Below, in pieces: positions 43,910 to 59,637 of a DNA stretch of 59,637 nucleotides. Numbering within the stretch: the first letter of the stretch is position 1; each line of letters begins with the position of its first letter. Position numbers and translations under genes: made by a program. Source of the stretch: Melioribacteraceae bacterium. GTDB taxonomy: Bacteria; Bacteroidota; Ignavibacteria; Ignavibacteriales; Melioribacteraceae. The notes under the pieces are model-generated. The model did no database searches, was not told the origin of the DNA, and saw only the letters and a list, made by a program, of their open reading frames with translations. The stretch covers positions 1 through 59,637 of the forward strand of contig JAFGMI010000022.1 in the NCBI GenBank assembly GCA_016927595.1. Reading direction: 5' to 3'.

Positions 43910-44743
43910 TTATCTGAATAATCCGAGAATATTCTGAGGAGCTGCATTAAGTTGCGCCAGCATCGAAGTTGCAACCTGACCACCTATTTGAGCTTTGGTG
44001 GCATTCAACTGCTCCATTGCCATATCGGCATCAAACAGTCTTGATACCGAAGCTTCAGAGTTCGCGATAGCTACAGTTAGAAAATCTTCTTTCGCGTCAA
44101 GACGTTGCAAATAGTTACCAACTTTACCAAGAGCGTCTTCTATAGTAGATTCGAAAGTATCCAGGTTTGTTTCAAGATTTGTGAAGTCAGCTCTTGCTGA
44201 AGATGATGAAAGTGCATTGATTTCAGCTTCAGAAGTGTTGTAGTTGCTAGCTACGTTATCTGCGTAGTCAATTGATAATGTTTCGCTAGTTGTAACACCT
44301 GTCTGGAATGTGAAACCAGTAGCGGCAGTTGTTCCCAGGAGTACTGAATCGTTAAATTTAGTGTTCGAAATAGCATTTCCAATTTCATCGGAAATAGCTT
44401 TGATGTCATTCTGCAAAGCATTTAAGTCAGCTGCAGCGTTACCTGAGTCAGCTATTTTAGCTTTGATATCTGTTATCATATCTCTGATAGCAACTAACTG
44501 ACCTTCTGCTGTAGCTAACAAATCTTTAGCAGAACCAACGTTCTTCTGAGCAGCTTTCATTAACGAAACTTTAGCCTCGAGAGATTTACCAATGTTGAAA
44601 CCAGATGTATCATCTGCAACGCTATTGATTCTCTTCTGAGTAGCTAATCTCAACTGAGCTTTCTCAGTTTGTGCGTTAAGTTTTGCAAGTGCATTGTATG
44701 CGTTTAATGCACCAACGTTTGTAGCGATTCTGAAACTAGACAT
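43910..44743 (-). CDS. fliC: Flagellin FliC
   Basis: The 277 residues are a short flagellin: D0/D1 N-terminus (SSFRIATNVGALNAYNALAK; QLRLATQKRINSVADDTSGF), a small variable middle (about 135-185, Ser/Thr-rich), and the C-terminus (DADMAMEQLNATKAQIGGQV, then ATSMLAQLNAAPQNILGLFR). I start at the ATG at 44743 (MSSFRIA) because GGAGGT lies five bases upstream; the ATG four codons earlier contains that site. A sigma28-type promoter and CsrA-like leader sites control it. A glycan cluster lies directly upstream. Confidence 0.96.
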   Translation of the reverse strand: MSSFRIATNVGALNAYNALAKLNAQTEKAQLRLATQKRINSVADDTSGFNIGKSLEAKVSLMKAAQKNVGSAKDLLATAEGQLVAIRDMITDIKAKIADSGNAAADLNALQNDIKAISDEIGNAISNTKFNDSVLLGTTAATGFTFQTGVTTSETLSIDYADNVASNYNTSEAEINALSSSSARADFTNLETNLDTFESTIEDALGKVGNYLQRLDAKEDFLTVAIANSEASVSRLFDADMAMEQLNATKAQIGGQVATSMLAQLNAAPQNILGLFR

Positions 44744-44747
44744 TTGA

Positions 44748-44759
44748 ACCTCCATGTAT
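44748..44759 (-). promoter_or_regulatory. Candidate CsrA site over the fliC Shine-Dalgarno
   Basis: The leader RNA reads AUACAUGGAGGU, matching the CsrA consensus RUACARGGAUGU in 10 of 12 positions with the essential GGA inside the ribosome site. Binding would block initiation. Confidence 0.5.
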
Positions 44760-45042: not shown

Positions 45043-46560
45043 TCAGACTATATGTTCAAGCTTCTTCTCTATAGTTGTGATATGCTGATTGAAGAGCATG
45101 TTGCCTTTAAAATTCTTTTTGCTGGTTTTTATCAGCTCCTCCAGCTTGCCGTAATCTTTCGTTTGAAAATATAATGATATTAGATAGAAAACCGGTGAGG
45201 GTTCACTGGGAAATCTGGTTAAGAGTTGCTCAAAAAGATTGACGGCTTTTTCTGTTTTATCTGCTTTGCTGTATGCCAGACCCAGTTTGTTCCAGACTAA
45301 AACATTATTATCAAATTTTATGAGTGCTTCCCCGATCAGTTTGATTTTGATATCAACTGAATTATACTTTTCAAGAAGCCCGAGATAAAATTCCAGGTTA
45401 TAATCAGAAAGAATAATTCTGAATTTTTCTATCATTTCCTGCGGAATAATCTCATTGCCCGCAAGTGAAACGATTAAGGCAACTTCATCCTCAAACTTAT
45501 ATGTGCTCTTACTAAAATTATTCTCAAGCTCCTGCAGAAAATATTGTATCCCTTCGTTAATACCTTTTTGAACAGAAACATTCAATCCATGATAAAGAAT
45601 TTTATCCTTCTCAATTATAATATCAAGAGCTCCCGTTCCGGTTTTTTTATCCGACAATTTATTATTGAGCAGATAAGCCTTTTTACAGAGCTCAGCAGAT
45701 AATTCCCCGTTTCCCGCTTTAAACATTATTTCAGAACCGACCAGATTTAACAGCGGGTGATCGGGTGATTTTTGAAGACCCTTTTCAAGCATGTCTAACG
45801 CAATTTCTATTTTATTTAATTTCATGTAATAATCAGCTACATATGCGGCACAAATCCCGTAATACTCCTTGCTAAGTTTAGAATCGTTCATTGCAATTGA
45901 ATAATATTCTGATGCCTTTTCTTTATTATCCAGTATACTGTATGTATTACCCAGTTGGAAAGCAGTATAGGAGGATTCTGCTGAATTATAATCTTCAAGC
46001 AGCAGTTTAAGATTTCTGTCCGCTTTTTTTCTTAAGCCCTCGCGATCTAAATTGTAGCCCAGATGAGTAATTATAATACTGCTGTCTACGAACCTGTAAC
46101 CTTTTTTCTCAAGGGAGAACTCGATTTGTTCGTGAGCTTTACCTTCAAATCTGATTCCGGGTGAATTTTTAAAGAGGCGTGTATATTTCATTAATTGCGG
46201 CTTGTTATTTATCTCATCAACACTATAAATACTGCAGTAAACACCTTGCAGCTTGTTTTCCGATGTAATTTTTTTCAGCTCCTTTACAGACTCTTTGCTC
46301 AGACGTTCGTCCGCATCAAGGTATAATATCCAGTCACCTGTACATTTTGAAAGAGAAAAATTACGCGCGGCGGAAAAATCGTTTACCCACTCAAAATTAT
46401 AAATCTGTGCTCCGTAGGCTCCGGCAATTTCAACGGTGTTATCGGTTGATCCGGTATCAACAATCACGATCTCATCAACTACTCCCTTTACAGATTCGAG
46501 ACAGTCTCTGAGATACTTCTCTTCATTTTTAACGATCATACTTAATGTCAGTTTGCCCAA
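45043..46560 (-). CDS. GT2 glycosyltransferase with TPR repeats
   Basis: The 505 residues have an N-terminal GT-A domain of family GT2, SunS-like (LTLSMIVKNEEKYLRDCLES; IVDTGSTDNTVEIA; WILYLDADERL, with the DxD). TPR repeats follow from about residue 200 to the end. The start is a TTG at 46560 with AGAGGT four bases upstream; the first ATG (46539) would cut the first beta strand. TPR-linked transferases often modify proteins. Its place just before fliC suggests flagellin glycosylation. Confidence 0.87.
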   Translation of the reverse strand: MGKLTLSMIVKNEEKYLRDCLESVKGVVDEIVIVDTGSTDNTVEIAGAYGAQIYNFEWVNDFSAARNFSLSKCTGDWILYLDADERLSKESVKELKKITSENKLQGVYCSIYSVDEINNKPQLMKYTRLFKNSPGIRFEGKAHEQIEFSLEKKGYRFVDSSIIITHLGYNLDREGLRKKADRNLKLLLEDYNSAESSYTAFQLGNTYSILDNKEKASEYYSIAMNDSKLSKEYYGICAAYVADYYMKLNKIEIALDMLEKGLQKSPDHPLLNLVGSEIMFKAGNGELSAELCKKAYLLNNKLSDKKTGTGALDIIIEKDKILYHGLNVSVQKGINEGIQYFLQELENNFSKSTYKFEDEVALIVSLAGNEIIPQEMIEKFRIILSDYNLEFYLGLLEKYNSVDIKIKLIGEALIKFDNNVLVWNKLGLAYSKADKTEKAVNLFEQLLTRFPSEPSPVFYLISLYFQTKDYGKLEELIKTSKKNFKGNMLFNQHITTIEKKLEHIV

Positions 46561-46577: not shown

Positions 46578-49500
46578 TTAAACTTCTTCACCGATTTTAC
46601 TGCTTATATATTCAAGATTACCCCTTGCAATTTCGTTCTGCGGATCGATGGAAATAATCTTGTTTATTAGTTTTAATGCTTCTTCAAAATTATTTTCAAG
46701 TATTCTGATCACTGACAAATCATTCAGCGCATCAATATAATCCGGTTCCTTTTCCAGAATTCTGCTTAACATTTCTTCAGCTCCGTTATAATTTCCCCGT
46801 TCTATCAATATCTCTGCTTCATCAACTATTTCCTGAGGATCGCACTCTAACAAAGTATTATCATTTTCCGGCAGACCAAGTTTAAAATTGACTTCAGCCA
46901 GTCCTTTTCTCGCATCATTATTCTGTAAATTGTTTTTAACTGCCCACTCAAACATGGTTTTCGATTCCTCCGTCTTTCCCATCGCATAAAATACTTCACC
47001 TAATCCCTGACATGCAGTGCTCGATTCCGGATTTATTTTCAGCTCTTCCTCGTAATACAATTTTGATTCATCGTACTCGCCGTTGTAATAAGATACTTTG
47101 CCTGCCAGGTTAAGTACTTCCGTGAGTTTTATTTCACTAAAAGTTTTACTGTCCGATCTGCTGAAAGAATCGACTGCTTGTTTAATTTCGATGTATGCAA
47201 GACCCAGTTCATTATCTTCGATATGCTGAAGAGTTCTTTCAAAGTGTTCCGTGAAATCATCAGCAGATATCGGATACCTTATAGAGTGCACTTTAAGCTG
47301 TTTTTTATTAATCCAAATATCCTCGGGTGTTCCGCCCCACTTGTCTGCAAACAGTTCCTTATTCATATCAGAGATCTTTACTCTGTTATCGTCTCCAAGT
47401 TCGCTGAACGATACAGACCCGTAGTGATGAATGAATACATCCTGAGCGATTACACTTTTAAATCCTGCTAATTGCGCCCGCAGGCAAAAATCATCGTCTT
47501 CATAATATCCCGGCGAGAACCTTTCGTCCAGTCCGCCTATTTCATCCACCACTTCACGTTTGATCAGAGTAAATAAAAACGTTACTCTTGGAAATTCGCC
47601 GTACTCACCTTTCATTGTGTTTCTTATTTTTTTGGCGTACTCATGCATTTCGGGAATTGTTTTATATTTCGCATCTCTATCCCACTGGGGACCGCCTGCA
47701 TGATTGCTGATTACACCGACCAAACCTATTTTTTTATCGGATTCCGCCAGTTCAATCATACGATCAATGCTGCCTTCGGTGCAGATTGTATCGTTATTTA
47801 CAATCAGCAAATATTTACCCGATGCCGATTTTATACCCAGATTCACAGATTTGGGGAAACCCAGATTCATCTCGTTTCTGATTACCGAAACTTTTTTGTT
47901 ATTTATAAACGGTTCGTTGAAATTCTCGGTCGAACCGTCGTCAACAATAATAATTTCATAGTCCTTATTTATGCTCTTCTCTATGCTTTCAACAGCTTCA
48001 AGAACGTATTTAATTTTATTAAAGCTGGGTATTATAACCGATACGATATCACATGCCTCTTCCGCCTGAGTCCTGCTTCCGGATGATATCAAAGTCTTTA
48101 ACGCATCATCGGAAAGTTCAACAGGAGCACTTTGCTCGGATAATAATTTTTGCCTGGTTTGCTTGTCAAACTCAAAATGCGATATCGATTCAATTGTTTT
48201 AATAAGCGCATTCAGCGTATTTTTTTCATTGAATTGATAAGCGGTTTTTATACCCTCTATTGCCATTGCAGCATATGAATCGATATTCTGCATTATAGTA
48301 ATTATTGCTGAGCTTAATGCCTGCGTATCTTCATAATCAACCACATAAGAATTTTTACCGTTCACACAAAAACTTTCGGCACCCATATTACTTGTGGTAA
48401 TTACCGGTGTACCGCATGCCATTGCTTCGACCAGCGGTAATGAAAAACCTTCGTACATTGAAGAGCATACAACAAGACTGCTTTTCTTTAATATTTCAGC
48501 AACTTCATCTGATCGCAGTTTTGTCAATAGTTCTATGCTGAATCCCGCTTCCTCTTCAAAGTTTTTCCTGAGTTCTAATTTATCCCCGGGATCGAATCCC
48601 ATTATCATGTAAAGTTTTAATCCTTCTATTTTATATGCAGACTTCTGCAAGACTTTCAGCGTATTAAAGAGAAAAGAAAAACCCTTTAAAAAATGAAAAG
48701 GACTTCCGACAAATACTACGGACTTTTCCCGTGAATTTAACGGAAGCGACGGTTTGAATATTTCGTGATTTATACCGTTGGGGACGTAATAGCTAGTATG
48801 ATTAAACCTTTCCCTGAATAAATCACTTAAATGTGTCGATACAACAATACTTCCGATAGGTAACGAGTGCATCTGATCAAAAATATATTTATCGGCTCTG
48901 ACGCTTTTATTATCAACTCCGTAATGGTAACCCTCGTATCCCTGGCAGAACAGAAAAACACGGGAAGGATGAATCCGCTGCACAACTCCCGGGACTTCAA
49001 ATATGCTGAACACTATTATATAATCGAATTTCCTGTCATCAAGCTCCGTAAAATTCTTTATTTGTTTAAAGTTAATTTTAAATTCAATCCAGGTCGGTTT
49101 CGGTTCAAATGAATAAATGCTTATTTCAGCGCCCAGTTGTTTCAGCCAGCTTATATGCTTAAACACCACCTTGGTGCCGCCTCCGATAAAGTTGGCGTCT
49201 TTAAGGAAGTATGCTATCCGAGGAGAAGATGTTTTATTAAGTGTACCAGCATCGTTTAATTTTTCATATAAAGATTTATGGTGCCCGCTGAATAATTCTT
49301 CGCTGAATCTGTACCCGGTTTTACATTCCGGGCATACAAGCTTATCTGTGCCAGGCTTATCGTTAAATTGAAGAGTAGTATTAAATTTGAATTCTGATCC
49401 GCAATGATCACATTTAAGCTCCAGCTTGTGGCTGATGCGGTTGAAATCGCCGAATACTCTCCCGACATTCCAGGCGACTATTGATCCAGGGGACAAATCC

Positions 49501-50717
49501 GGATATTCTTTTTCATCGTCAATAGCGCCATAAAGAATAGGTTCGTATTGATTCCCGTCGCTGAATAACTTATCGCCCAGCTTTTCTGCACGTATCATAT
49601 ATCGTTCAAGACTTAAAATCTTTTTATGATCGCCTGTCTTCAGCAGATATCTTAAATATTTTTTAACCTCCCTGCCGGCATCATATTTACCCAGCTCAAT
49701 ATGATCCTTTATTAAAAATCTTTTAAGTACTTCTTTTACCTCAGCGGGATGATCATCTTTTAACGCTTCAGATACAATTTTCGCTGCTCTTTGATAAATA
49801 TTTTTTCTGAATGAATATTTGCATTCTTTGAGCAGCCACCGCTTTGCCCTTTCCAGCAGCAGAGACGACGGACCGAACTTATGTATAAAAGCGTTCGGTT
49901 TAAGAGTAATGGCTATAATTTCGAAAACAGCTTTAAGTGCATTGCTTTCTACCGACAGATTAAAATCAGGGAAAAACTCCTCGAATTTGTGCGTGTTTGC
50001 AAATTCGATAAGAGATCTGACGGCATCGAAATTTCCGCCTTCCTCGAATGTATTTGTCGTTTGTCCCTCATGTATCCTTGTTACGCAGGTTCTAACAGGA
50101 ATAAACTGGAAATTGTATTTCGACACAATTCTCAGCCACATATCAAAATCCTGACCCTGCCATAATTTCTGATCGAACAAACCTATATCTTCAAATACCG
50201 TCCGATGAACCGTAACCGATATTGCATGGATATAATTAGCATAGAAGAAATGAAGCACTCTGAATTCATCTTTAGGAACAGGCATCCACAAATTAGCCGG
50301 GATCAGCACCTGCGATTCTTCGACAAGATAATACCACATACTAATGAAAAATTTTTTCTCGGGGTGTTTTTCAATGTTCTGTAGGTGCGCTTCCAGTTTT
50401 ACAGGATCGAACAAATCGTCTGCAGACAGCCAGGTAATAAATTCACCGCGTGCATTTTTTATACCTTCATTTAGCGCTGATGAAACTCCTCCGTTCTCTT
50501 TATGAAAGCCTCTTACCCTGTAATCTTTATTCTCATACTCCTTAATTACATCGGGCGTGTTGTCAGTACTCCCGTCATTTACGACAACAATCTCCCAGTC
50601 ATCATAAGTCTGATTGAAGATAGATTCAATTGCAGCAGGCAAATAATTTGCGTGATTATAAACCGGAATGATAACCGAAAATTTTGGTTTCTTCGTCTCA
50701 GCGGTTTTTATTTTCAT
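46578..50717 (-). CDS. Multidomain glycosyltransferase: GT2, zinc ribbon, GT4, GT2, TPR
   Basis: This 1379-residue protein contains three glycosyltransferase domains. GT2 at about 12-240 (FSVIIPVYNHANYLPAAIES; TWLSADDLFDP). A helical part, then a CxxC-CxxC zinc-ribbon-like segment at about 434-464 (KCDHCGSEF; VCPECKTGY). A GT4-type GT-B domain at about 497-840 (SPRIAYFLKDANFIGGGTKV; SSMYEGFSLPLVEAMACGTP). A second GT2 at about 889-1130 (VSVIIPSFNKIKYVLEAVES; IVNNDTICTEGS). TPR repeats fill 1170-1379. No membrane helix is seen, so it should act in the cytoplasm. It may build a chain of two or three sugars on one scaffold. Confidence 0.88.
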   Translation of the reverse strand: MKIKTAETKKPKFSVIIPVYNHANYLPAAIESIFNQTYDDWEIVVVNDGSTDNTPDVIKEYENKDYRVRGFHKENGGVSSALNEGIKNARGEFITWLSADDLFDPVKLEAHLQNIEKHPEKKFFISMWYYLVEESQVLIPANLWMPVPKDEFRVLHFFYANYIHAISVTVHRTVFEDIGLFDQKLWQGQDFDMWLRIVSKYNFQFIPVRTCVTRIHEGQTTNTFEEGGNFDAVRSLIEFANTHKFEEFFPDFNLSVESNALKAVFEIIAITLKPNAFIHKFGPSSLLLERAKRWLLKECKYSFRKNIYQRAAKIVSEALKDDHPAEVKEVLKRFLIKDHIELGKYDAGREVKKYLRYLLKTGDHKKILSLERYMIRAEKLGDKLFSDGNQYEPILYGAIDDEKEYPDLSPGSIVAWNVGRVFGDFNRISHKLELKCDHCGSEFKFNTTLQFNDKPGTDKLVCPECKTGYRFSEELFSGHHKSLYEKLNDAGTLNKTSSPRIAYFLKDANFIGGGTKVVFKHISWLKQLGAEISIYSFEPKPTWIEFKINFKQIKNFTELDDRKFDYIIVFSIFEVPGVVQRIHPSRVFLFCQGYEGYHYGVDNKSVRADKYIFDQMHSLPIGSIVVSTHLSDLFRERFNHTSYYVPNGINHEIFKPSLPLNSREKSVVFVGSPFHFLKGFSFLFNTLKVLQKSAYKIEGLKLYMIMGFDPGDKLELRKNFEEEAGFSIELLTKLRSDEVAEILKKSSLVVCSSMYEGFSLPLVEAMACGTPVITTSNMGAESFCVNGKNSYVVDYEDTQALSSAIITIMQNIDSYAAMAIEGIKTAYQFNEKNTLNALIKTIESISHFEFDKQTRQKLLSEQSAPVELSDDALKTLISSGSRTQAEEACDIVSVIIPSFNKIKYVLEAVESIEKSINKDYEIIIVDDGSTENFNEPFINNKKVSVIRNEMNLGFPKSVNLGIKSASGKYLLIVNNDTICTEGSIDRMIELAESDKKIGLVGVISNHAGGPQWDRDAKYKTIPEMHEYAKKIRNTMKGEYGEFPRVTFLFTLIKREVVDEIGGLDERFSPGYYEDDDFCLRAQLAGFKSVIAQDVFIHHYGSVSFSELGDDNRVKISDMNKELFADKWGGTPEDIWINKKQLKVHSIRYPISADDFTEHFERTLQHIEDNELGLAYIEIKQAVDSFSRSDSKTFSEIKLTEVLNLAGKVSYYNGEYDESKLYYEEELKINPESSTACQGLGEVFYAMGKTEESKTMFEWAVKNNLQNNDARKGLAEVNFKLGLPENDNTLLECDPQEIVDEAEILIERGNYNGAEEMLSRILEKEPDYIDALNDLSVIRILENNFEEALKLINKIISIDPQNEIARGNLEYISSKIGEEV

Positions 50718-50748: not shown

Positions 50749-52701
50749 TTATTTTGCGTTTTTGATTTTCAAATACTTTTCTATAATTCCAGGATGATAA
50801 TTTGTCATGTCCAGTTCCACAACAGCCTCGGCATAATTCAACAGATAAGTTTCGTTAGACTCGTCAAGATTAAAGGCATCGATAAAATAATTAAGAGCAA
50901 TGTATTTTTTATTCATATTCCAGTAAGCAATTCCAATATTATTTCTGGCTCCCGCATTTTCAGGTTCGATAGATAAAATCATGTTAAATATCTCAATTGC
51001 TTTTTCATAATTCTCATTAGAGGCAAGTAATAATTCGCCGGCTTCAAGCAGTTTGTTAACAGAATTTTTTTCTTGTTCTGATATGATTACAGAATTATTT
51101 GCTGATCCTTCTTTATAAAAGTTATTTATACATTCACTGTAAATATTTTCACAGCTTTTGACCATTCTTCCTGGGTTACCATTAATTTGAACAATGGCTT
51201 CTTTACATCTTTTACCCAAAGACTTCCGTTTTTCATTATTACGCAGCAGGTCAGTTATTCTTTCTTTCATCATCTCAAAATTATTACGGGGAAGAATCAA
51301 CTCCGGAATATCGATTAAAATTCCGGCTGTTGTTTGATTGGAATAGTCATAATCACCCGTAAGTTTGCATTCAAAGGTCAGAATCGGTATAGAAAGCGAC
51401 ATGGTATCCATCATAACTATTCCGCCGCCCATGGGGTAAGTACTCAGTACAAGATCCGCCGAGGCTAAATAATTATAATAATTATAGATCCATCCCATCA
51501 GATGAATTCTGTTTTTTACTGAAAAATATCCTTCCAATTCATTCAGGAAAGGAATTTCCGCTTCCTTTGGACCAATAACCACATAGTCGAAATCGGGATT
51601 ATCAGTCAATAAACCAACAATGGTTTGCCAGTACTCCCTGTTTTGAAACTTCGGAAACCGTCCTACGCTCATCAGTATTTTCTGTCCCGGTAATACACCA
51701 AATGCATCTGGTTTAACAGTTACTACATTTTCCTTATTGGGCAATTCCACTTCCATATTGAATACACTCGTATCAACGGGTGATGCCATCTGAATTTGCT
51801 GAGGCCACGCAATTGCATGGTTGAACTTGTGCGAGATAGAAAACTCAAGTGCATTACCCAGAACTAAACCCAGGAGTACAGGAGCAGGTTTTAACAGTGA
51901 AACAAAGTAATGTTTAAAATCCGCCAAACCCTGTGTAGTAACCATTATATGAGGATTGAAACGATTGATTGAATGAGCAAGCGATATGAGCTTTTGGTCA
52001 ACTTCTTTTGCATTTGGTGCAGCAAAAACTTTCCAGCCATATGATTCAAGCAATTTTACATGCGCTTTACCGCCTTCAGAATTATTAACAACTGCCTCAC
52101 TTTCGGGAAAGTAGAACCGGATATCATATTTACTTTTATCATGATGCACGGCGAAATGCCTCATAACTTTCATCAGGGTACCATCCTTAATGGTACCGTC
52201 TTTAATCAGATAAGCAATTCGGATTTTACCTTCTTCCGGTTTCTCCGGCTTGTTTATAAATTTTACATTATAGCTATCAACAAGCCTGTCTGTAGCATTT
52301 AATATATCCTGATCGTATACATATTTATCTCTTTTTTCCAGTTTTACATAAGAATACAACCAATGTTCAAACAGTTTTGAAGCTATTTCAATATTACCGG
52401 CATCAGCCTCTTTTATATATAGTCTTTTTAATCCCTCTCTTACAGGTTCGGTATTCTTAAGGTTTTTATGTACTGTCATAAATAAATCGAATAATTCGCC
52501 GTTATAACCTGATAAACTAAAGGCTCTGGTTATGTACGATACGGCTTCCTCAAATTTTTTAACATAACAATATGCTTCAGCAATTTTAAAATTTGTCCGC
52601 CATCTCTTTTCAACCGAAGGGGTAAGCAGTATTTGCTGAATTTCGGATGCTGGAACATCTTCATTGTTAAGTATCCTGCTTAAGATTTTACTTTGGGTCA
52701 T
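50749..52701 (-). CDS. TPR-flanked GT-B glycosyltransferase (O-GlcNAc-transferase-like)
   Basis: The 650 residues have helical TPR-like repeats at about 1-110 and a clear TPR run at about 560-645 (ENYEKAIEIFNMILSIEPEN, then AGARNNIGIAYWNMNKKYIA). Between them is a GT-B fold (IRIAYLIKDGTIKDGTLMKV; LMSVGRFPKFQNREYWQTIV; DLVLSTYPMGGGIVMMDTMS). The last motif resembles the nucleotide-sugar site of GT41 (OGT/SPINDLY) and GT4 enzymes. A protein O-glycosylation role, probably on flagellin, is inferred. The donor sugar cannot be read from the sequence. Confidence 0.8.
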   Translation of the reverse strand: MTQSKILSRILNNEDVPASEIQQILLTPSVEKRWRTNFKIAEAYCYVKKFEEAVSYITRAFSLSGYNGELFDLFMTVHKNLKNTEPVREGLKRLYIKEADAGNIEIASKLFEHWLYSYVKLEKRDKYVYDQDILNATDRLVDSYNVKFINKPEKPEEGKIRIAYLIKDGTIKDGTLMKVMRHFAVHHDKSKYDIRFYFPESEAVVNNSEGGKAHVKLLESYGWKVFAAPNAKEVDQKLISLAHSINRFNPHIMVTTQGLADFKHYFVSLLKPAPVLLGLVLGNALEFSISHKFNHAIAWPQQIQMASPVDTSVFNMEVELPNKENVVTVKPDAFGVLPGQKILMSVGRFPKFQNREYWQTIVGLLTDNPDFDYVVIGPKEAEIPFLNELEGYFSVKNRIHLMGWIYNYYNYLASADLVLSTYPMGGGIVMMDTMSLSIPILTFECKLTGDYDYSNQTTAGILIDIPELILPRNNFEMMKERITDLLRNNEKRKSLGKRCKEAIVQINGNPGRMVKSCENIYSECINNFYKEGSANNSVIISEQEKNSVNKLLEAGELLLASNENYEKAIEIFNMILSIEPENAGARNNIGIAYWNMNKKYIALNYFIDAFNLDESNETYLLNYAEAVVELDMTNYHPGIIEKYLKIKNAK

Positions 52702-52708
52702 ATTCTAT

Positions 52709-53815
52709 TCATCTAAAATTTTTTATTGTATTTATTATCCTTTCCTGCTGCGATTCTTCCAGAAAGGGGCAGATAGGCAAACTTAGAGCCGTTTCGGAAA
52801 TTTTACTTGCAACAGGAAATGATTCATTACGTTCGAATTGTTGGATGTAAGCTTGTTGTTTGAAAGGCGGAACGGGATAGTGAATCATGTTTTGAATTCC
52901 ATTCCCGGTTAAATAGTTTTTTAATTCATCTCTTTCGTTCAATCTGATAACGAATAAGTGCCAGACTGATCTTACCTTATCTATTTCCTGCGGTAAGCTC
53001 AAGAAATCACAGGCACTTAACTCGTTGATATAATTCCTGGCCAGTGTTTGTCTTTTGTCATTCCATAAATCCAGGTATTTTAATTTAACACGTAAAATAG
53101 CTGCCTGAATTTCATCGAGTCTATTATTGTAACCAATCATATCATGAATGTATTTTTCATTTGATCCGTAATTTCTAAGAGCAAATATTTTGTCGATTAG
53201 TTCCTTGTCGTTGCTTACAATTGCGCCGCCGTCACCAAGCGCACCCAAATTTTTCGTTGGATAAAAACTAAAACCCGCAGCATCTCCGAGCGATCCGGTT
53301 TTCTTCTCATGGTATATCGCACCATGCGACTGTGCGGCATCCTCAATAACTATAATGTTATATTCAGCCGCTATAGATCTTATGGATTCCATATCCGCCG
53401 GCTGCCCGTATAAATGCACTGGTATTACTGCTTTCGTTTTATTTGTAATTTTTGATTTCAGCAATTCAGGATTTATGTTAAATGTGGCATCAGATACATC
53501 GACGGGAATTACAGTAGCGCCGACATATGATACTGCCAGCCAGGTAGCTATAAAGGTGTGGGCGGGAACGATTACTTCATCACCCTTGCCGATGTTATAT
53601 GCCCTCAGAATGAGGCTCAGTGCATCAAGCCCGTTGCTAACCCCCGAACAATACTCGGCGTTACAATAAGCAGCAAATTCTCTTTCAAAAGCCTCAACTT
53701 CTTCCCCTAAGATGAACTGACTTTTCGACACTACTTTTTGGAATGCATCGGTAATTTCTTCTTTCAGATATTCGTTAGCTGCTTTAATATTTGTAAATAG
53801 TATCGGCTCTGTCAT
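52709..53815 (-). CDS. DegT/DnrJ/EryC1 family sugar aminotransferase (QdtB/FdtB-like)
   Basis: The 368 residues are a PLP-dependent sugar aminotransferase. The PLP Lys lies near residue 188 ([20 protein letters not shown]). Other family motifs are [35 protein letters not shown], and [14 protein letters not shown]. Next to two ketoisomerase genes it should make the 3-amino sugar of a dTDP-3,6-dideoxyhexose (Qui3N or Fuc3N type). It overlaps the ketoisomerase gene by 4 bases. Confidence 0.92.
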
Positions 53816-54246
53816 TCGGCACTCAATTTTTCTCTGAAAGAAATGTAATTATCATAATCCCGTATATATTCATTTTCATCGTAAGGTAATGAAGCGAGAA
53901 CAAGGCATATTCCGCCCGTACTGAAATTTACAATTTCGCGCCAGATTAACTGCGGGACATAGAGTCCTTCATAAGAACGATTAAGTTTTATGGTTTTTCG
54001 CTCTTTTCCATCATCAAGAATTACATCAAAACTTCCCGACGGACAAACAATAAACTGTTCCAGTTCTTTATGTGCATGTCCACCCCGGGTTTCGCCGCCC
54101 GGCACATCATATAAATAGTAAACACGCCTGATATCGAAGGGGATTTCCTCGCTGTTATGTACAGGTGTAAGATTGCCTTTGGGATTCTGTATCTTAGGTA
54201 ATTTAATGATCCGTGTATCGTTTATTGTGTTGATTTTATATTCCAT
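53812..54246 (-). CDS. dTDP-4-keto-6-deoxyglucose 3,4-ketoisomerase (FdtA/QdtA-like)
   Basis: The 144 residues are a small cupin with the family core [20 protein letters not shown], keeping both His of the HAH pair that is used in catalysis. It also has [19 protein letters not shown] and [20 protein letters not shown]. It converts dTDP-4-keto-6-deoxyglucose into the 3-keto sugar used by the aminotransferase next to it. FdtA and QdtA differ in stereochemistry, which I cannot resolve. Confidence 0.9.
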
Positions 54247-54643
54247 CTTTTAATTTTCTGAAATCTTCATAATGGTATATATAGTCATCTTTCTCATAAG
54301 ATCTTGAAACAAGGTAAAGCGCAACAGAATTAGTGGAAAAATTCGATAGTTCTCTCCAGTAAAGATTAGGTATATATAAACCGTAATACGATCTATTTAA
54401 CGTGTACGTAATTTTATTCATCCCGTCATCGACACTTACATCGAAACTGCCCGTTAATGCAACAATAAATTCTTCAAGTTGTTTTTTTGCATGACCGCCC
54501 CTGACTTCGCCGCCGGGGACATCATATATCCAGAATGCTCTCTTAATTTCAAAAGGAAGGTGATTTTCACTTTCAATATAAGTCAGATTTCCCCTGGGAT
54601 CATTAATCTTAGGAAGTTTGATTATTCTCGGTTCGTTTTTCAT
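54236..54643 (-). CDS. Second FdtA/QdtA-like cupin with an altered HAH motif
   Basis: The 135-residue paralogue of the next gene has PGGEVRGGHAKKQLEEFIVA, so the second His of HAH is Lys. The remaining layout (TGSFDVSVDDGMNKITYTLN; RSYYGLYIPNLYWRELSNFS) is kept. It overlaps its neighbour by 11 bases and is the first gene of the transcript. It may have a changed specificity, or act as a non-catalytic partner, since these enzymes are dimers. Confidence 0.85.
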   Translation of the reverse strand: MKNEPRIIKLPKINDPRGNLTYIESENHLPFEIKRAFWIYDVPGGEVRGGHAKKQLEEFIVALTGSFDVSVDDGMNKITYTLNRSYYGLYIPNLYWRELSNFSTNSVALYLVSRSYEKDDYIYHYEDFRKLKDGI

Positions 54644-55068: not shown

Positions 55069-55536
55069 ATGCATGCAAACAAACTGGGCAGATATTTTGA
55101 GGAGTTTGAAAAAGGTGCTGTAATTGAGCATGAACTATCAAAAACAATTTTTGAAAGCGACAATAATTTATTCTGCTTACTGACAATGAATCCTAATCCT
55201 CTTCATACAAATGTGGAGTATGCTGAAAAAAACAATGATGGTAAAATTCTTGTTGTGGGAACTCTCGTATTCAGTCTGGTTGTCGGGATTTCTGTTACAG
55301 ATATAAGCGGTAAAGCAATTGCAAATCTCTGCTATGAAGATATTGTGCATAAAAATCCTGTTTATTTAAATGACACTATACACGCAAAATCGACAATACT
55401 CGAAATCAGAGAATCGAAAACAAAAAGGGATCGTGGAATTATATATGTGGAGACGAAAGCCTATAATCAGTATAATGTAGAAGTTATCAGCTTCAGACGA
55501 AAAGTATTAGTAAAAAAACGGGAATCAAATGAGTGA
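55069..55536 (+). CDS. MaoC-like (R)-specific enoyl-CoA hydratase/dehydratase
   Basis: The 155 residues form a single hotdog domain of the MaoC type. After GRYFEEFEKGAVIEHELSKT it has the NPLHTN segment (MNPNPLHTNVEYAEKN), the MaoC pattern NxxH close to the usual D-x5-H active site. Relatives hydrate or dehydrate acyl-CoA, for example mesaconyl-CoA hydratase. The ATG has AAAGGA upstream. It overlaps the next gene by 8 bases. The substrate is unknown; see the CitE-like neighbour. Confidence 0.88.
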   Translation: MHANKLGRYFEEFEKGAVIEHELSKTIFESDNNLFCLLTMNPNPLHTNVEYAEKNNDGKILVVGTLVFSLVVGISVTDISGKAIANLCYEDIVHKNPVYLNDTIHAKSTILEIRESKTKRDRGIIYVETKAYNQYNVEVISFRRKVLVKKRESNE

Positions 55537-56425
55537 TTATCTATTAAGAAGTTTAATGTTTGTGCCGGGGCATAATGAAAAGTTATTGGAAAGTGCTGCC
55601 AAATCCGATGCTGATGCACTTCTGCTTGATATTGAAGATTCGGTTCAACCGGTATCGAATAAAAAAATAGCGCGGGAAAAAATAATTAAATTTGTAACTG
55701 AGGGAAAATTCAACAATCATAAAGTTTTTCCGAGAGTAAATGACAGAGAGAGCGGTCATTTATTAAAAGATGTATATGAACTTTCCATCCCTGGTGTTGA
55801 TGGATTTATGTACCCGAAATCTCATAAGGGAGAGGATGTATATTTTTTTGATAAACTTTTAGAGACCATTGAATTTGAAAAAGGCATAACAAAAGGCACC
55901 TATAAAATTATTCCCTTAATAGAAACGGCAGCGGCAGTTTTAAACGCTCAGGAAATTTGTCAGGCATCTTCGCGTGTTATTGCAATAGCATACGGCTGTG
56001 AGGATTTTATTAACGATTTGAGGGGAATTCACGATCCGGAGTCTGCAAGTCTTTTTACTCCACGCGCCATAATAGCAATGGCAGCAAGAGCAAATAATGT
56101 GATTCCAATCGATACCGTTCATATAAAAGTGCATGATCTCGACGATCTCGAAAGAAACTTGAGGATTGCTAAAAATCTCGGCTTTGAAGGAATGCTTGTT
56201 TTACATCCGAAAGAAATTGAATACGTTCATAAATACTTTTCACCAAACAATAATGAAGTTGAAGCTGCTATCGAAATGTTAAATCTTTCCAGGGAAGCCG
56301 AAGTAAACGGCAAGGGAGTGGCTTATATTAATGGGAAATTTATCGGTCCGCCTATGGTACTGACAGCAAAGGAAGTTATCAGAAAAAATGAATTGATAAA
56401 AAGAAAGAAAGTAAGATATGAGTAA
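55529..56425 (+). CDS. CitE-like lyase (HpcH/HpaI aldolase family)
   Basis: The 298 residues match the citrate lyase beta/malyl-CoA lyase family: RSLMFVPGHNEKLLESAAKS, LLLDIEDSVQP (metal site), IETAAAVLNAQEI, AIAYGCEDFINDLRG (metal site) and GMLVLHPKEIEYVHKYF. Such enzymes join or split acyl-CoA and a 2-oxoacid such as glyoxylate. With the MaoC-like partner this is the pair used for malyl/mesaconyl-CoA type chemistry. The genes overlap on both sides (8 bases), so all three act together. Confidence 0.9.
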   Translation: MSDYLLRSLMFVPGHNEKLLESAAKSDADALLLDIEDSVQPVSNKKIAREKIIKFVTEGKFNNHKVFPRVNDRESGHLLKDVYELSIPGVDGFMYPKSHKGEDVYFFDKLLETIEFEKGITKGTYKIIPLIETAAAVLNAQEICQASSRVIAIAYGCEDFINDLRGIHDPESASLFTPRAIIAMAARANNVIPIDTVHIKVHDLDDLERNLRIAKNLGFEGMLVLHPKEIEYVHKYFSPNNNEVEAAIEMLNLSREAEVNGKGVAYINGKFIGPPMVLTAKEVIRKNELIKRKKVRYE

Positions 56426-57080
56426 AAAAGTTATTATTATTGGCGGAGAAGGCAACGGCGGTGTTGTTGCCTCATGTATTGAAGACAACATTGCGCGATT
56501 CAATGACGATGAGTACGAAGTAGCCGGATTCCTGAATGACCTTGAGAAAGGAAAGACAATAAACAATTATCCGGTTCTTGGTGGAACTGACGAGGCTTCG
56601 AAATTCGTGAATGATTTCTATTTTATATTTGCAATCCATATGATCGGCAGGAATATTCTTACCGAACAGGTTTTCAACAAACTGGAAATTCCAAAGGAAC
56701 GGTACGCAACAATTATTCATAAAACCGCTTTTGTAGCTTCAAATGCTATTTTAGAACCCGGAGTTTTCGTTATGTCTAATTGTTATGTGGGTCCGGCTGC
56801 TCATATCGGACAGTGTTCGCTTTTAATGGCTAATTCGCTTATCGGACACAATACAACGGTGGGCAAATTATGCCATTTTTCTGTGGGCTCCATAACAAGT
56901 TCTTATGTTAACATTGGAAATGTTTCGGATGTAACACTTGGAGCAAAAGTTCTGGAAAAGCGCAGGATCGGAAATTACGCGGTTGCCGGAGCAAACAGCT
57001 TAATTACAAGTGATATACAGGATAAAGAAATTCATATAGGCTCGCCTGCAAAATTCTTAAAGTATGTTCGTGAGGATTAA
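56418..57080 (+). CDS. Hexapeptide-repeat sugar acyltransferase (PglD/NeuD family)
   Basis: The 220 residues have an N-terminal Rossmann-like nucleotide-sugar domain (KKVIIIGGEGNGGVVASCIE) and a C-terminal left-handed beta-helix (SNCYVGPAAHIGQCSLLMAN, SLIGHNTTVGKLCHFSVGS), with a catalytic-type His in SLIGHNT. PglD enzymes acylate amino sugars on nucleotide carriers. Here the acyl donor may be the product of the MaoC-CitE pair. It is the last gene of the plus operon and converges on the formyltransferase gene. Confidence 0.88.
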   Translation: MSKKVIIIGGEGNGGVVASCIEDNIARFNDDEYEVAGFLNDLEKGKTINNYPVLGGTDEASKFVNDFYFIFAIHMIGRNILTEQVFNKLEIPKERYATIIHKTAFVASNAILEPGVFVMSNCYVGPAAHIGQCSLLMANSLIGHNTTVGKLCHFSVGSITSSYVNIGNVSDVTLGAKVLEKRRIGNYAVAGANSLITSDIQDKEIHIGSPAKFLKYVRED

Positions 57081-57148: not shown

Positions 57149-58108
57149 TCAACCCAGCATAGCATTCTCGGTAAGTTGTTTTTCCAGTGCCCAGATATCA
57201 CTCCAGACTTCAACATCATTCTCAGGAAGAACGGATTTCAGCCATACTGCTTCGTTATTGCCGACTTGCAGCAAAATGCCTTTTCCTTTTTCTATTTTTA
57301 TTATCGTCCCTGCTTTTTTATCATAATTTTGGTTTGATTTTTCCGCTGTCCACACAATCAGATTACCCAGTTTCGTTTTAAAGAATGCTCCCGGGTAAGG
57401 ATGAGTAAGTGCACGAACATAATTCATTATTTTATCAGCATCCCACTCAAATTCCATTTTACCGTCTTCCGGCTTTCTTTTATAGTAGCGTGTAGCTTTC
57501 ATGCCCGTTTGATTAATACTTTTATAACTGCCGTCCAGAATTTTAGGAAGAGTACGTTTTACCATTTTCAGGGCGGTTCTGTCGGCTTTCAAGTAAGCGG
57601 TTCTTATATCGTCTCTCGGTTCTAGTTCAAACGGTTCGAAATCCAGTATTTCGCCTGCATCAGTTTTCTCTTCCATAATAAACATCGTATTACCCCAGCT
57701 GCCACCGCCTTCTATCAATTTCCAATTCAGAATTGCGGCACCTCTCCCTTCGGGCAACGGAGCTGCGTGAATTCCGGCACAAAACAATTTAGGCACCTCA
57801 AGTACTTCCTTCTTCCAGATCTGCGACCAGCCTGACTGCAGAATTACATCAGGTTCGCGGTTTCGTATCCATTCAATTGATTGGGAGTCATTTATGTTAT
57901 CAATATATATTATATCGTCAGGTCTTCTCAATTTAAAATCAAACATCGGGGCAAAGTTCGATCTGTTAAAAAACTTTTCCGGTTTGAGATTAACGACACC
58001 CGCAAGCTCAACTTCCTGCATTGATTCTAAAAGCACATTAATTTTTTCCGTCATCGGAGTTGTCCCGATGGAAACCACACGAAGTTTATCACTATTCATT
58101 TTCTGCAT
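57149..58108 (-). CDS. Formyltransferase-fold protein (methionyl-tRNA/sugar formyltransferase family)
   Basis: The 319 residues (from the ATG at 58108; the frame extends to 58144 inside the PIG-L gene) have a Formyl_trans_N domain: GIHAAPLPEGRGAAILNWKL and the Asp of IMEEKTDAGEILDFEPF. A C-terminal domain follows. The catalytic triad of this fold is Asn-His-Asp, but the Asn of NxH is Gly here (GIH). It may use a different mechanism or be inactive. With the deacetylase it could change an N-acyl group on a sugar. Sugar N-formylation is inference. Confidence 0.82.
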   Translation of the reverse strand: MQKMNSDKLRVVSIGTTPMTEKINVLLESMQEVELAGVVNLKPEKFFNRSNFAPMFDFKLRRPDDIIYIDNINDSQSIEWIRNREPDVILQSGWSQIWKKEVLEVPKLFCAGIHAAPLPEGRGAAILNWKLIEGGGSWGNTMFIMEEKTDAGEILDFEPFELEPRDDIRTAYLKADRTALKMVKRTLPKILDGSYKSINQTGMKATRYYKRKPEDGKMEFEWDADKIMNYVRALTHPYPGAFFKTKLGNLIVWTAEKSNQNYDKKAGTIIKIEKGKGILLQVGNNEAVWLKSVLPENDVEVWSDIWALEKQLTENAMLG

Positions 58109-58109
58109 G

Positions 58110-58781
58110 TTATAACTTATTCTTTGAAAAAAGCCCAAGCTCATGAGAATCTACAAGTCTTGTAACCATGAAAGCCTCGGCGTAATCATGTCCGCACTGA
58201 TACCCCCAGAATCGCTCCCGGTCAAATATTTCCCTCTGCCATCTATTCTTGCGGTACTCCCATTCTGTCTCATGAATTGACAGGAATTTTTCTTTTTGTT
58301 TATATTCTTCAGCCGTAAAGCCCCAGAAATATTGAGGGGTAAAAACTTTTATATTATCGAAGTATGAATTGCTCTGATACTGCAGGAGGTTTCGCACGCG
58401 TCTGAATGCAACTCTCGAAATTTCCCATGATGCAACGTGATCGGTGTTATGATCGCCGAACCAATGTGTAAAAACAAGGTCTATTTTTTCATCTCTCACT
58501 ATTGTTTCAAGTTCCTGCATTACTTTCTGGTCATATACCATTTTCTGATTGGGAAGCGGTGATGTGTGTTTATGGATAATGCCCAGTTTTTCGAAAGCTG
58601 AATTTCCTTCAAGCAACGCAATCTGTTTCTGGCGTTCGTGATTATCTTCTTCGACAATATAATCTGAAGCTGTTAAAACCGCTCCGAAGACTCTGGCACC
58701 GCGCTGCTGAAGTCGCTTAATACTTAATCCGCAACCTATTTCTATGTCGTCCCAGTGTGCACCGACTGCAAGAACATTCAT
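58110..58781 (-). CDS. PIG-L/LmbE family deacetylase
   Basis: The 223 residues start with the family metal motif VGAHWDDIEIGCG (AHxDDxE) and hold the second metal site HWFGDHNTDHVASWE. PIG-L enzymes remove N-acetyl groups from GlcNAc-type sugars and related compounds. It lies 10 bases from the methyltransferase and abuts the formyltransferase gene. Together they look like a sugar re-acylation set; the substrate is not known. Confidence 0.9.
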   Translation of the reverse strand: MNVLAVGAHWDDIEIGCGLSIKRLQQRGARVFGAVLTASDYIVEEDNHERQKQIALLEGNSAFEKLGIIHKHTSPLPNQKMVYDQKVMQELETIVRDEKIDLVFTHWFGDHNTDHVASWEISRVAFRRVRNLLQYQSNSYFDNIKVFTPQYFWGFTAEEYKQKEKFLSIHETEWEYRKNRWQREIFDRERFWGYQCGHDYAEAFMVTRLVDSHELGLFSKNKL

Positions 58782-58791
58782 TTACTTATCC

Positions 58792-59637
58792 TTACCTCTT
58801 AAAATGAAATAAATATCTCTGACCATACATTGTATTTCTATGCGAGGTCAGTTTTTTTTGTAATTCAAATCCGTATTCTTCAGCTTTATTAATAATCTGT
58901 TCTACCTGATAATCATTAATTTCGAATACCAATTCGTTTGCACTGCTGAATATGCTGTTCAGAACACTATCATAATGTTCAGGCGTGGTGTTTCTTTGTA
59001 CATGATGTAACATATTCAGTGCCATAATAATATCGTACTCATCGCCTGGAATAATATTTCCGTTTCCTAACGGTATCGCTTCTGTATCAAAATTATTGAA
59101 GTGATTGGACATTAACATTTCACGATAGACTTTTAATTGTTTTTCGCTCTGGTCAATACCTTTTACTTTTGCCGCACCGCTTTGTAAAACTTTCAAAGAA
59201 AAGTATCCGAAATAACTTCCTATATCAAGCACATATTTGCCTTTCCAATCAATATCGAATTTGCTGATATTCTCCCATGACAACCAGCATTGTTCAGTAC
59301 CCGGACGAATAATTTCCCCTTCGTATTCAATTGTCTGATATGGCTGATCTTCATTCATTGAAACAAACCTCAGGAGCTCCCACTTGTTAAGTCTCCAGTC
59401 AATAACTTCGCCGACTGTCTCCATAAAGTGATCTGCATTTTGAATAGAATAATTATCACCCTCTCTGTATATGTATTCGATATTAGAAATTATTCCTTTA
59501 TTTAAATACTCCTCAAATCTTTCTCTGAGCATATGTTGATTCTTCTGATTCCATATCATGTCTTCTTCTTTACTGAGTTTTTCCTTTTCACGATTCGCGA
59601 TTCGTTCAGGTGTTGATCGTTGTGATGCGTATAATTC
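58792..59637 (-). CDS. SAM-dependent methyltransferase, possibly extending past the window
   Basis: The clear domain is a Rossmann methyltransferase: VLDIGSYFGYFSLKVLQSGA (motif I), KGIDQSEKQLKVYREML, MALNMLHHVQRN. The first ATG in the frame is at 59559 (255 residues), but the frame stays open for 26 more codons to the right edge (through SKEED) and no good ribosome site precedes the ATG. The gene may therefore start outside the window. It resembles CmoB-like and sugar methyltransferases; the target may be a sugar or a protein. Confidence 0.8.
   Translation of the reverse strand, partial: ELYASQRSTPERIANREKEKLSKEEDMIWNQKNQHMLRERFEEYLNKGIISNIEYIYREGDNYSIQNADHFMETVGEVIDWRLNKWELLRFVSMNEDQPYQTIEYEGEIIRPGTEQCWLSWENISKFDIDWKGKYVLDIGSYFGYFSLKVLQSGAAKVKGIDQSEKQLKVYREMLMSNHFNNFDTEAIPLGNGNIIPGDEYDIIMALNMLHHVQRNTTPEHYDSVLNSIFSSANELVFEINDYQVEQIINKAEEYGFELQKKLTSHRNTMYGQRYLFHFKR

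Follow-up and report, generated by a model that had tools for sequence, protein, structure and literature searches.

Why should genes of acyl-coenzyme A (CoA) chemistry lie beside genes for an amino sugar? The question is raised by a 59,637-nucleotide contig of a Melioribacteraceae bacterium (JAFGMI010000022.1, assembly GCA_016927595.1; the window, by which we mean the whole of this stretch), in which three consecutive genes encode a MaoC-type hydratase/dehydratase, a CitE-like protein denoted here CitE1 and a PglD-type acyltransferase. A first-pass annotation had suggested that the first two enzymes make an unusual short acyl-CoA, malyl, mesaconyl or similar, that the third places on a 3-amino sugar of flagellin. 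That proposal proved right in outline, its observation being confirmed and its interpretation partly supported: the genes appear to form a pathway for the N-acylation of amino sugars, equipped with an acyl-CoA module of its own and including a CitE subfamily that lacks a defining catalytic feature.

The three open reading frames (ORFs) overlap successively by 8 bp and are divergent from two FdtA-like genes and a DegT-family gene, with an intergenic distance of 425 bp, as the first-pass annotation had it. The Pfam assignments are clear for MaoC (MaoC_dehydratas, 60.8 bits against a cut-off of 27; MC_hydratase, 56.5 against 26.5), CitE1 (HpcH_HpaI, 142 against 25) and PglD (PglD_N, 31.8 against 23.4; Hexapep, 34.8 against 27). 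No clear step in base composition marks the cassette.

When public genomes were scanned with only the CitE protein as query and gene context was ignored, 47 loci were obtained (40-77% identity, a few matches being counted at their best segment only); three more, for a total of 50, were added from a set of 296 genomes belonging to the phylum, six of which matched at 1e-60, the window's own among them. The set includes near-copies (L016/L017, L020/L022) and pairs from the same bin (L034/L054, L042/L052). The cassette is found in Bacteroidota, Ignavibacteria, Cloacimonadota, Calditrichaeota, Delongbacteria, Chloroflexi, Peptococcaceae, a Woesearchaeota bin and the betaproteobacterium Malikia, many of these genomes being metagenome bins. 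MaoC lies upstream of CitE1 in 48 of the 50 loci, directly in 44 by ORF calling, in three by tblastn (among the genes missed by ORF calling were MaoC in L041 and, in two frames, L058) and in one with an intervening ORF; the gap between the two genes is -56 to +8 bp in 43 of the 44 and 61 bp in the remaining one. A PglD-type gene is near CitE1 in 47 of the 50, directly downstream in 25 by ORF calling and also in L032, itself missed by ORF calling and counted through tblastn. Because MaoC precedes CitE1 and a PglD-type gene is near in nearly all loci, MaoC-CitE1-PglD is a recurrent cassette, not a chance association. The co-occurrence with glycan genes that the first-pass annotation had asked to be sought in other genomes was indeed found, a glycan gene being recognised at most nine genes away in 43 of 49 loci; none was recognised in L014, L018, L019, L042, L047 and L052 with the small query set used, several of these being short contigs. 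Profile scores above 440 bits were obtained in seven of 391 genomes of the class, the window's own included, and, among 398 sampled Pseudomonadota genomes, only for the Malikia cassette itself. One scan of viral contigs found none encoding a relative, and the 500 plasmid records with a match were all below 60% identity. A WbqC-like protein is encoded directly after CitE1 in L014, L018, L028, L029 and L043, and a Chloroflexi bin has a second, different MaoC gene near its cassette (L044:8850-9263).

The sugar contexts are of three kinds where they can be read, and in each the cassette belongs with an amino sugar, as had been proposed. By BLAST, QdtA/QdtB-type neighbours are found in the window, L012 and L030, with a QdtB-like gene only in L035; RmlA/RmlB/Wzx-DesI-type loci include L029, L043, L049 and L055-L060; and loci of pseudaminic acid (Pse) type include L022, L026, L036, L045 and L054. 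The reference loci for the latter two kinds were checked with NCBIfam: around the Algoriphagus cassette (L022), PseB, PseC, PseF and PseI exceed the cut-off and PseG falls below it, and beside the Pontibacter cassette (L029) RmlA exceeds it and a DesI-like aminotransferase falls below. Many loci could not be classified by sugar type in this way. In the Pse loci PglD adjoins PseG. PseH is the usual N-acetyltransferase of the Pse pathway; it was above cut-off in none of ten cassette genomes, four of them of Pse type, all ten having weak matches below cut-off, as did 13 of 14 control genomes, one of the controls being above it.

In the window genome the set for a dTDP-3-amino-3,6-dideoxyhexose is present (FdtA twice, DegT and, elsewhere in the genome, RmlB with 483.9 bits against a cut-off of 365.1), so that the sugar is probably of the Qui3N type, whether in the gluco or galacto form. 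The window DegT aminotransferase is 43-49% identical to those beside the cassettes of L012, L030 and L035, and the window PglD, sharing 75-76% identity with its counterparts in L012 and L030 and 48% with that in L035, joins all three in one well supported clade, in line with the proposed link between PglD and a sugar made by QdtA- and QdtB-like enzymes. Its Gly-His motif (G143-H144) is invariant in all 28 aligned sequences (the window and 27 of 47 PglD proteins); the nearest solved relative is VioB (7txp), and NeuD_NnaD of NCBIfam scores 142 bits, below the subfamily cut-off of 160.8. Two differing FdtA/QdtA-like genes stand in tandem in the window (53812-54643), a pairing also seen next to the L012 and L030 cassettes.

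For 20 loci of clear context we compared the gene trees with the type of sugar. The sugar label changes twice on the PglD tree, which is the minimum and was reached in none of 200 shuffles, seven times on the MaoC tree (a value this low arose in 36 of 200 shuffles) and six times on the CitE1 tree (4 of 200). Because the PglD tree follows the sugar and the other two do so far less, we read CitE1 and MaoC as a probable shared acyl-CoA supply, and the PglD lineage as the part that would select the acceptor.

What acyl group might be supplied is suggested by MaoC. The solved structures closest to it are 4e3e and 8hgn, a beta-methylmalyl-CoA dehydratase, and the best NCBIfam model, RipB_Ich (NF038241), scores 131 bits, far below its cut-off of 340. 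Eight residues surround malate in mesaconyl-CoA hydratase, namely Phe71, Ser79, Asn85, Arg142, Asn226, His231, Tyr248 and Gly249 (PMC10164722), letters and numbers that fit 8hgn exactly. Six of them have identical counterparts in MaoC (S80, N86, R144, N41, H46 and G64) that are invariant in all 32 cassette sequences aligned (the window and 31 of 45); the set is split over two half-domains in 8hgn and both parts are on one domain in the cassette protein. Because these residues are kept, a malyl- or mesaconyl-type substrate, that is, a C4-C5 acyl-CoA, is favoured, exact identity aside. Five plasmid-encoded MaoC proteins (46-49% identity) share the six residues, mostly minus G64. Their genes adjoin those of acyl-CoA dehydrogenases, joined in one case or another by CoA-transferases, MmgE/PrpD or a CoA ester lyase; they probably represent a catabolic dicarboxylate family from which the cassette branch was recruited.

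The CitE1 protein is more unusual. Its structural model (predicted local distance difference test score 93.7) has the TIM barrel and C-terminal lid of malyl-CoA lyase and CLYBL, matching 5ugr with a Z score of 36.8 and 2.6 A across 291 residues. The Mg ligands (E132, D159), the water-binding pair (E36, D37), the oxoacid arginine (R69) and its aspartate partner (D34) are invariant in all 37 aligned sequences (the window and 36 of 49). At the lid position, however, all 50 CitE1 sequences have glycine, where all 13 references have aspartate. The lid aspartate is conserved across the whole superfamily and in malate synthases, save for glutamate in the malyl-CoA thioesterase group (PMC3832036). CitE1 thus has neither the lid aspartate of malyl-CoA and citramalyl-CoA lyases (Asp299/Asp318 in malyl-CoA lyases), which has been proposed as the catalytic acid/base, nor the lid glutamate of the thioesterases. 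Among further profile matches, I/V-G-P-P is present in all eight above 440 bits, six of which are the window or loci already in the set, and aspartate in all 16 at 204-226 bits, which serve as an independent control. Because glycine replaces the aspartate in every member, CitE1 is, as judged from its residues, no ordinary malyl-CoA or citramalyl-CoA lyase: the first-pass assignment to a CitE/malyl-CoA-lyase-like enzyme holds for fold, metal and oxoacid residues and fails for the lid residue. His15 is present in all 49 sequences covering that position; two CoA ester lyases encoded in methylaspartate clusters have it too, which points weakly to a substrate of the citramalyl/pyruvate type.

Directly upstream of MaoC, 22 of 49 loci have another, distantly related CitE gene (CitE2), so that the three-gene set first described is often one of four. 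CitE1 and CitE2 each form one clade, with Shimodaira-Hasegawa-like approximate likelihood ratio support of 99 and 100 in a quick tree from which L016, L020 and L058 were left out, and the lid residue of CitE2 is glutamate in 22 of 22 (21 of the 22 sequences being included in the full CitE2 alignment). The presence of CitE2 changes at least six times on the CitE1 tree (43 rows, four edge loci left out, with L033, where a CitE2-like ORF lies between MaoC and CitE1, scored as lacking it). Because CitE2 is missing from many loci and changes repeatedly, the core cassette is MaoC, CitE1 and the acyltransferase. A heteromer in which the glutamate of CitE2 serves the CitE1 site is attractive where both occur; we reject it as a general answer because CitE2 was found neither in the window genome nor in any of 17 other CitE2-less genomes searched, where the best score was 139 bits against 315-320 in two positive controls, many of the 17 being metagenome bins that may be incomplete. 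The sole other CitE match in the window genome is a 404-aa fused gene with the lid aspartate (L013:8542-9756), the N-terminal part of which looks CitD-like by eye and which is followed by a 516-aa ORF. An asparagine-synthase-type amidotransferase gene adjoins CitE2 in one locus (L011:11655-13529), with a similar 627-aa gene near the L015 cassette; the former might amidate a free carboxylate of the sugar or acyl group. The Arcobacter butzleri cluster ab1917-ab1921 encodes a CitE, a ligase-CitE fusion, a hydratase, a CitE and a fumarase (PMC2147049), an order that resembles CitE2-MaoC-CitE1.

We lean, with moderate confidence, towards the view that CitE1 and MaoC form a mobile acyl-CoA supply module for the N-acylation of activated amino sugars by PglD. 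CitE1, together with CitE2 where present, would join an acyl-CoA to a Mg-bound 2-oxoacid, pyruvate being as likely a partner as glyoxylate, to give a beta-carboxy-beta-hydroxyacyl-CoA of the malyl, citramalyl or methylmalyl type, and MaoC would dehydrate or rehydrate this dicarboxylyl-CoA into the form used. The PglD/VioB-type acyltransferase would then move the acyl group onto the amine of a nucleotide sugar. In the window this acceptor would be a dTDP-Qui3N-like 3-amino-3,6-dideoxyhexose, the product of the divergent QdtA/QdtA/QdtB-like genes; elsewhere it would be an amino sugar of the DesI/VioA type or, in pseudaminic acid synthesis, what PseC makes. Finally, the acylated sugar would be transferred to flagellin by nearby glycosyltransferases.

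Several observations weigh against this pathway. With the lid aspartate absent from all 50 CitE1 proteins, condensation by the known mechanism would not be expected, so that, of the original idea that the first two enzymes make a malyl- or mesaconyl-like acyl-CoA, the MaoC half is supported in part and the CitE half called into question; nor does the window genome hold a CitE2 with its glutamate. No isocitrate lyase was found in that genome, which is 99.8% complete, a weak hint against the glyoxylate originally named as partner because this oxoacid would have no obvious dedicated source. At the malate site of MaoC, Phe71 corresponds to Val72, and Tyr248 to Val63 in 26 of 32 sequences. No MaoC gene was found at L034 or L047 and no PglD gene at L015, L021 or L031, and the fit of the CitE1 tree to sugar type is not wholly random. 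Conceivably, CitE1 is not the condensing enzyme: the dicarboxylyl-CoA would come from elsewhere in metabolism, MaoC would hydrate or dehydrate it, the acyl group would not be a simple malyl or mesaconyl, and CitE1 would catalyse an aldol step like that of HpcH or a decarboxylative condensation, or serve in binding or regulation. The change to glycine beside invariant Mg and oxoacid residues and the absence of the glutamate-bearing CitE2 from the window genome and the 17 other CitE2-less genomes searched fit this alternative, which we nonetheless consider rather unlikely, given that full conservation of the metal site speaks for a catalytic role with an oxoacid and that no other thioester source is seen at those loci examined for one, because no acyl-CoA ligase or CoA-transferase is among ten neighbour proteins scanned from nine other loci (six without a Pfam match). 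A bolder extension of the supply-module reading, offered only tentatively, is that CitE1 has a new activity for the superfamily, forming a C-C bond without the lid acid/base, for instance with the decarboxylation of a malonyl-type donor as driving force or with His15, which is invariant, acting as the base (both proposals only), and that, paired with a dicarboxylyl-CoA dehydratase, it yields an undescribed acidic or unsaturated N-acyl group and travels as an exchangeable module for Qui3N-type, 4-amino-6-deoxyhexose and pseudaminic acid pathways.

Two further explanations fare worse. MaoC relatives such as PhaJ make 3-hydroxyacyl-CoA, and the cassette MaoC might be an (R)-specific enoyl-CoA hydratase supplying an ordinary 3-hydroxybutyryl-type group, with CitE1 as an accessory. 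Marine bacteria commonly have amino sugars that carry an N-(3-hydroxybutyryl) group (PMC3210612). This explanation is improbable: the single-domain chains 1q6w and 4ffu have Asp where the cassette has Asn41 and Tyr or His where it has Arg144, and CitE1 accompanies MaoC in 48 of 50 loci, although these loci were found through CitE1. Still more improbable is a catabolic or central-metabolic set, for example for itaconate, mesaconate or citramalate turnover, placed near glycan genes by accident. The neighbours of the plasmid MaoC relatives are of this kind, and the A. butzleri cluster was taken by its authors as central metabolism (PMC2147049); yet 43 of 49 loci, found blind to context and across many phyla, have glycan genes, and the PglD lineages match the type of sugar.

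CitE1 shares its fold and its Mg and Arg residues with the malyl-CoA/beta-methylmalyl-CoA lyase that works with mesaconyl-CoA hydratase in the ethylmalonyl-CoA pathway and the 3-hydroxypropionate bicycle, and MaoC has six of the eight malate-site residues of that hydratase; the cassette differs in the missing lid aspartate, in a MaoC of a single short domain and in its glycan-cluster setting with an acyltransferase. The itaconate degradation enzymes RipB (Ich) and RipC (Ccl) are likewise a MaoC and CitE pair, and RipC_Ccl is the second best model for CitE1 (120 bits); however, the cassette proteins score far under the cut-offs (340 and 375), no CoA-transferase is seen and the RipC structure 3qll has the lid aspartate. 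The best NCBIfam model for CitE1 is the citrate lyase beta subunit CitE (200 bits, cut-off 443), but no CitD or CitF lies beside CitE1, and we ruled out an ordinary citrate lyase by context, clade and motif, the genome having a separate fused gene of CitE type with the lid aspartate. PglD, VioB and PerB N-acetyltransferases are of the same family as the cassette PglD and share its Gly-His motif; the tie of the latter to the CitE-MaoC pair suggests a donor other than acetyl-CoA. Anthrose and 3-hydroxybutyryl-viosamine pathways, like the cassette, combine an aminotransferase, acyl-CoA enzymes and an N-acyltransferase in one cluster. Unlike it, to our knowledge, pathways of this type use monocarboxylic acyl groups and have no CitE gene. 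The (3S)-malyl-CoA thioesterase group of R. sphaeroides has the lid glutamate (PMC3832036), as CitE2 does and CitE1 does not; the one annotated relative compared, Marinibacterium mcl2_2, has aspartate, the group being otherwise compared through its published description. N-malyl amino sugars are known as chemical structures from Pseudoalteromonas rubra, Vibrio vulnificus and Shewanella algae, and Flexibacter maritimus has a 2-hydroxyglutaryl group (PMC3210612), no link to the cassette being shown. The literature searched, whose coverage excluded most subscription journals, held neither a genetic route to N-malyl sugars nor any description of CitE paired with MaoC among glycan genes, in agreement with the first-pass remark that no pathway with this gene set is known to have been described.

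By position, flagellin is the probable final acceptor of the sugar, with the glycosyltransferases encoded nearby making the transfer (Table 1). The distance from the cassette is about 10.3 kb to the end of flagellin and 11.6 kb to that of FliD; of the three glycosyltransferase-like genes in the interval, one was run against Pfam. A relative of the gene next to flagellin adjoins FliC in all seven relatives with a readable span, and no cassette lies in the span read around FliC in these seven (15 relatives had a FliD match; the flagellar region was read in eight, one of them too short). Relatives of the 1379-aa gene, of different sizes, occupy the same place in related genomes. The trio beyond the cassette could swap N-acetyl for N-formyl on another sugar.

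Table 1. Genes of the cassette and its surroundings in the Melioribacteraceae window
Feature	Coordinates	Strand	Remarks
MaoC-type dicarboxylyl-CoA hydratase/dehydratase (predicted)	55069-55536	+	155 aa; Pfam MaoC_dehydratas, MC_hydratase
CitE1, CitE-like	55529-56425	+	298 aa; Pfam HpcH_HpaI; G-P-P (273-275) replaces lid Asp motif
PglD/VioB-type hexapeptide N-acyltransferase	56418-57080	+	220 aa; Pfam PglD_N, Hexapep
FdtA/QdtA-like sugar 3,4-ketoisomerase, first copy	54236-54643	-	Pfam FdtA 168 bits (cut-off 23)
FdtA/QdtA-like sugar 3,4-ketoisomerase, second copy	53812-54246	-	Pfam FdtA 181 bits (cut-off 23)
DegT-family (QdtB-like) aminotransferase	52709-53815	-	Pfam DegT 398 bits (cut-off 19.8)
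TPR-containing glycosyltransferase, probable flagellin glycan gene	50749-52701	-	Pfam Glycos_transf_1 and TPR; flagellin role from place only
Multi-domain glycosyltransferase-like gene	46578-50717	-	1379 aa; family judged by eye
Glycosyltransferase-like gene adjoining flagellin	45043-46560	-	Family judged by eye; relative beside FliC elsewhere
Flagellin, proposed final acceptor	43910-44755	-	Sequence judged by eye; between FliD and glycan genes
FliD	41721-43493		Matches FliD models
Formyltransferase	57149-58144	-	Convergent with and downstream of cassette
PIG-L/BshB1-like deacetylase	58110-58781	-	Convergent with and downstream of cassette
Methyltransferase	58792-59559	-	Convergent with and downstream of cassette

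Should the proposed pathway prove correct, the cassette would provide a route to an unusual dicarboxylic or unsaturated N-acyl group on surface, perhaps flagellar, sugars and would show that the supply of the acyl group can evolve separately from the sugar that accepts it, each as an exchangeable module; a CitE with a G-P-P lid beside MaoC would be a sequence marker from which such glycans could be predicted. With the lid aspartate gone and the active site otherwise intact, CitE1 allows the dependence of malyl-CoA-lyase chemistry on this residue to be tested directly. If CitE1 does have a new activity, one module would create new surface antigens on several sugar backbones.

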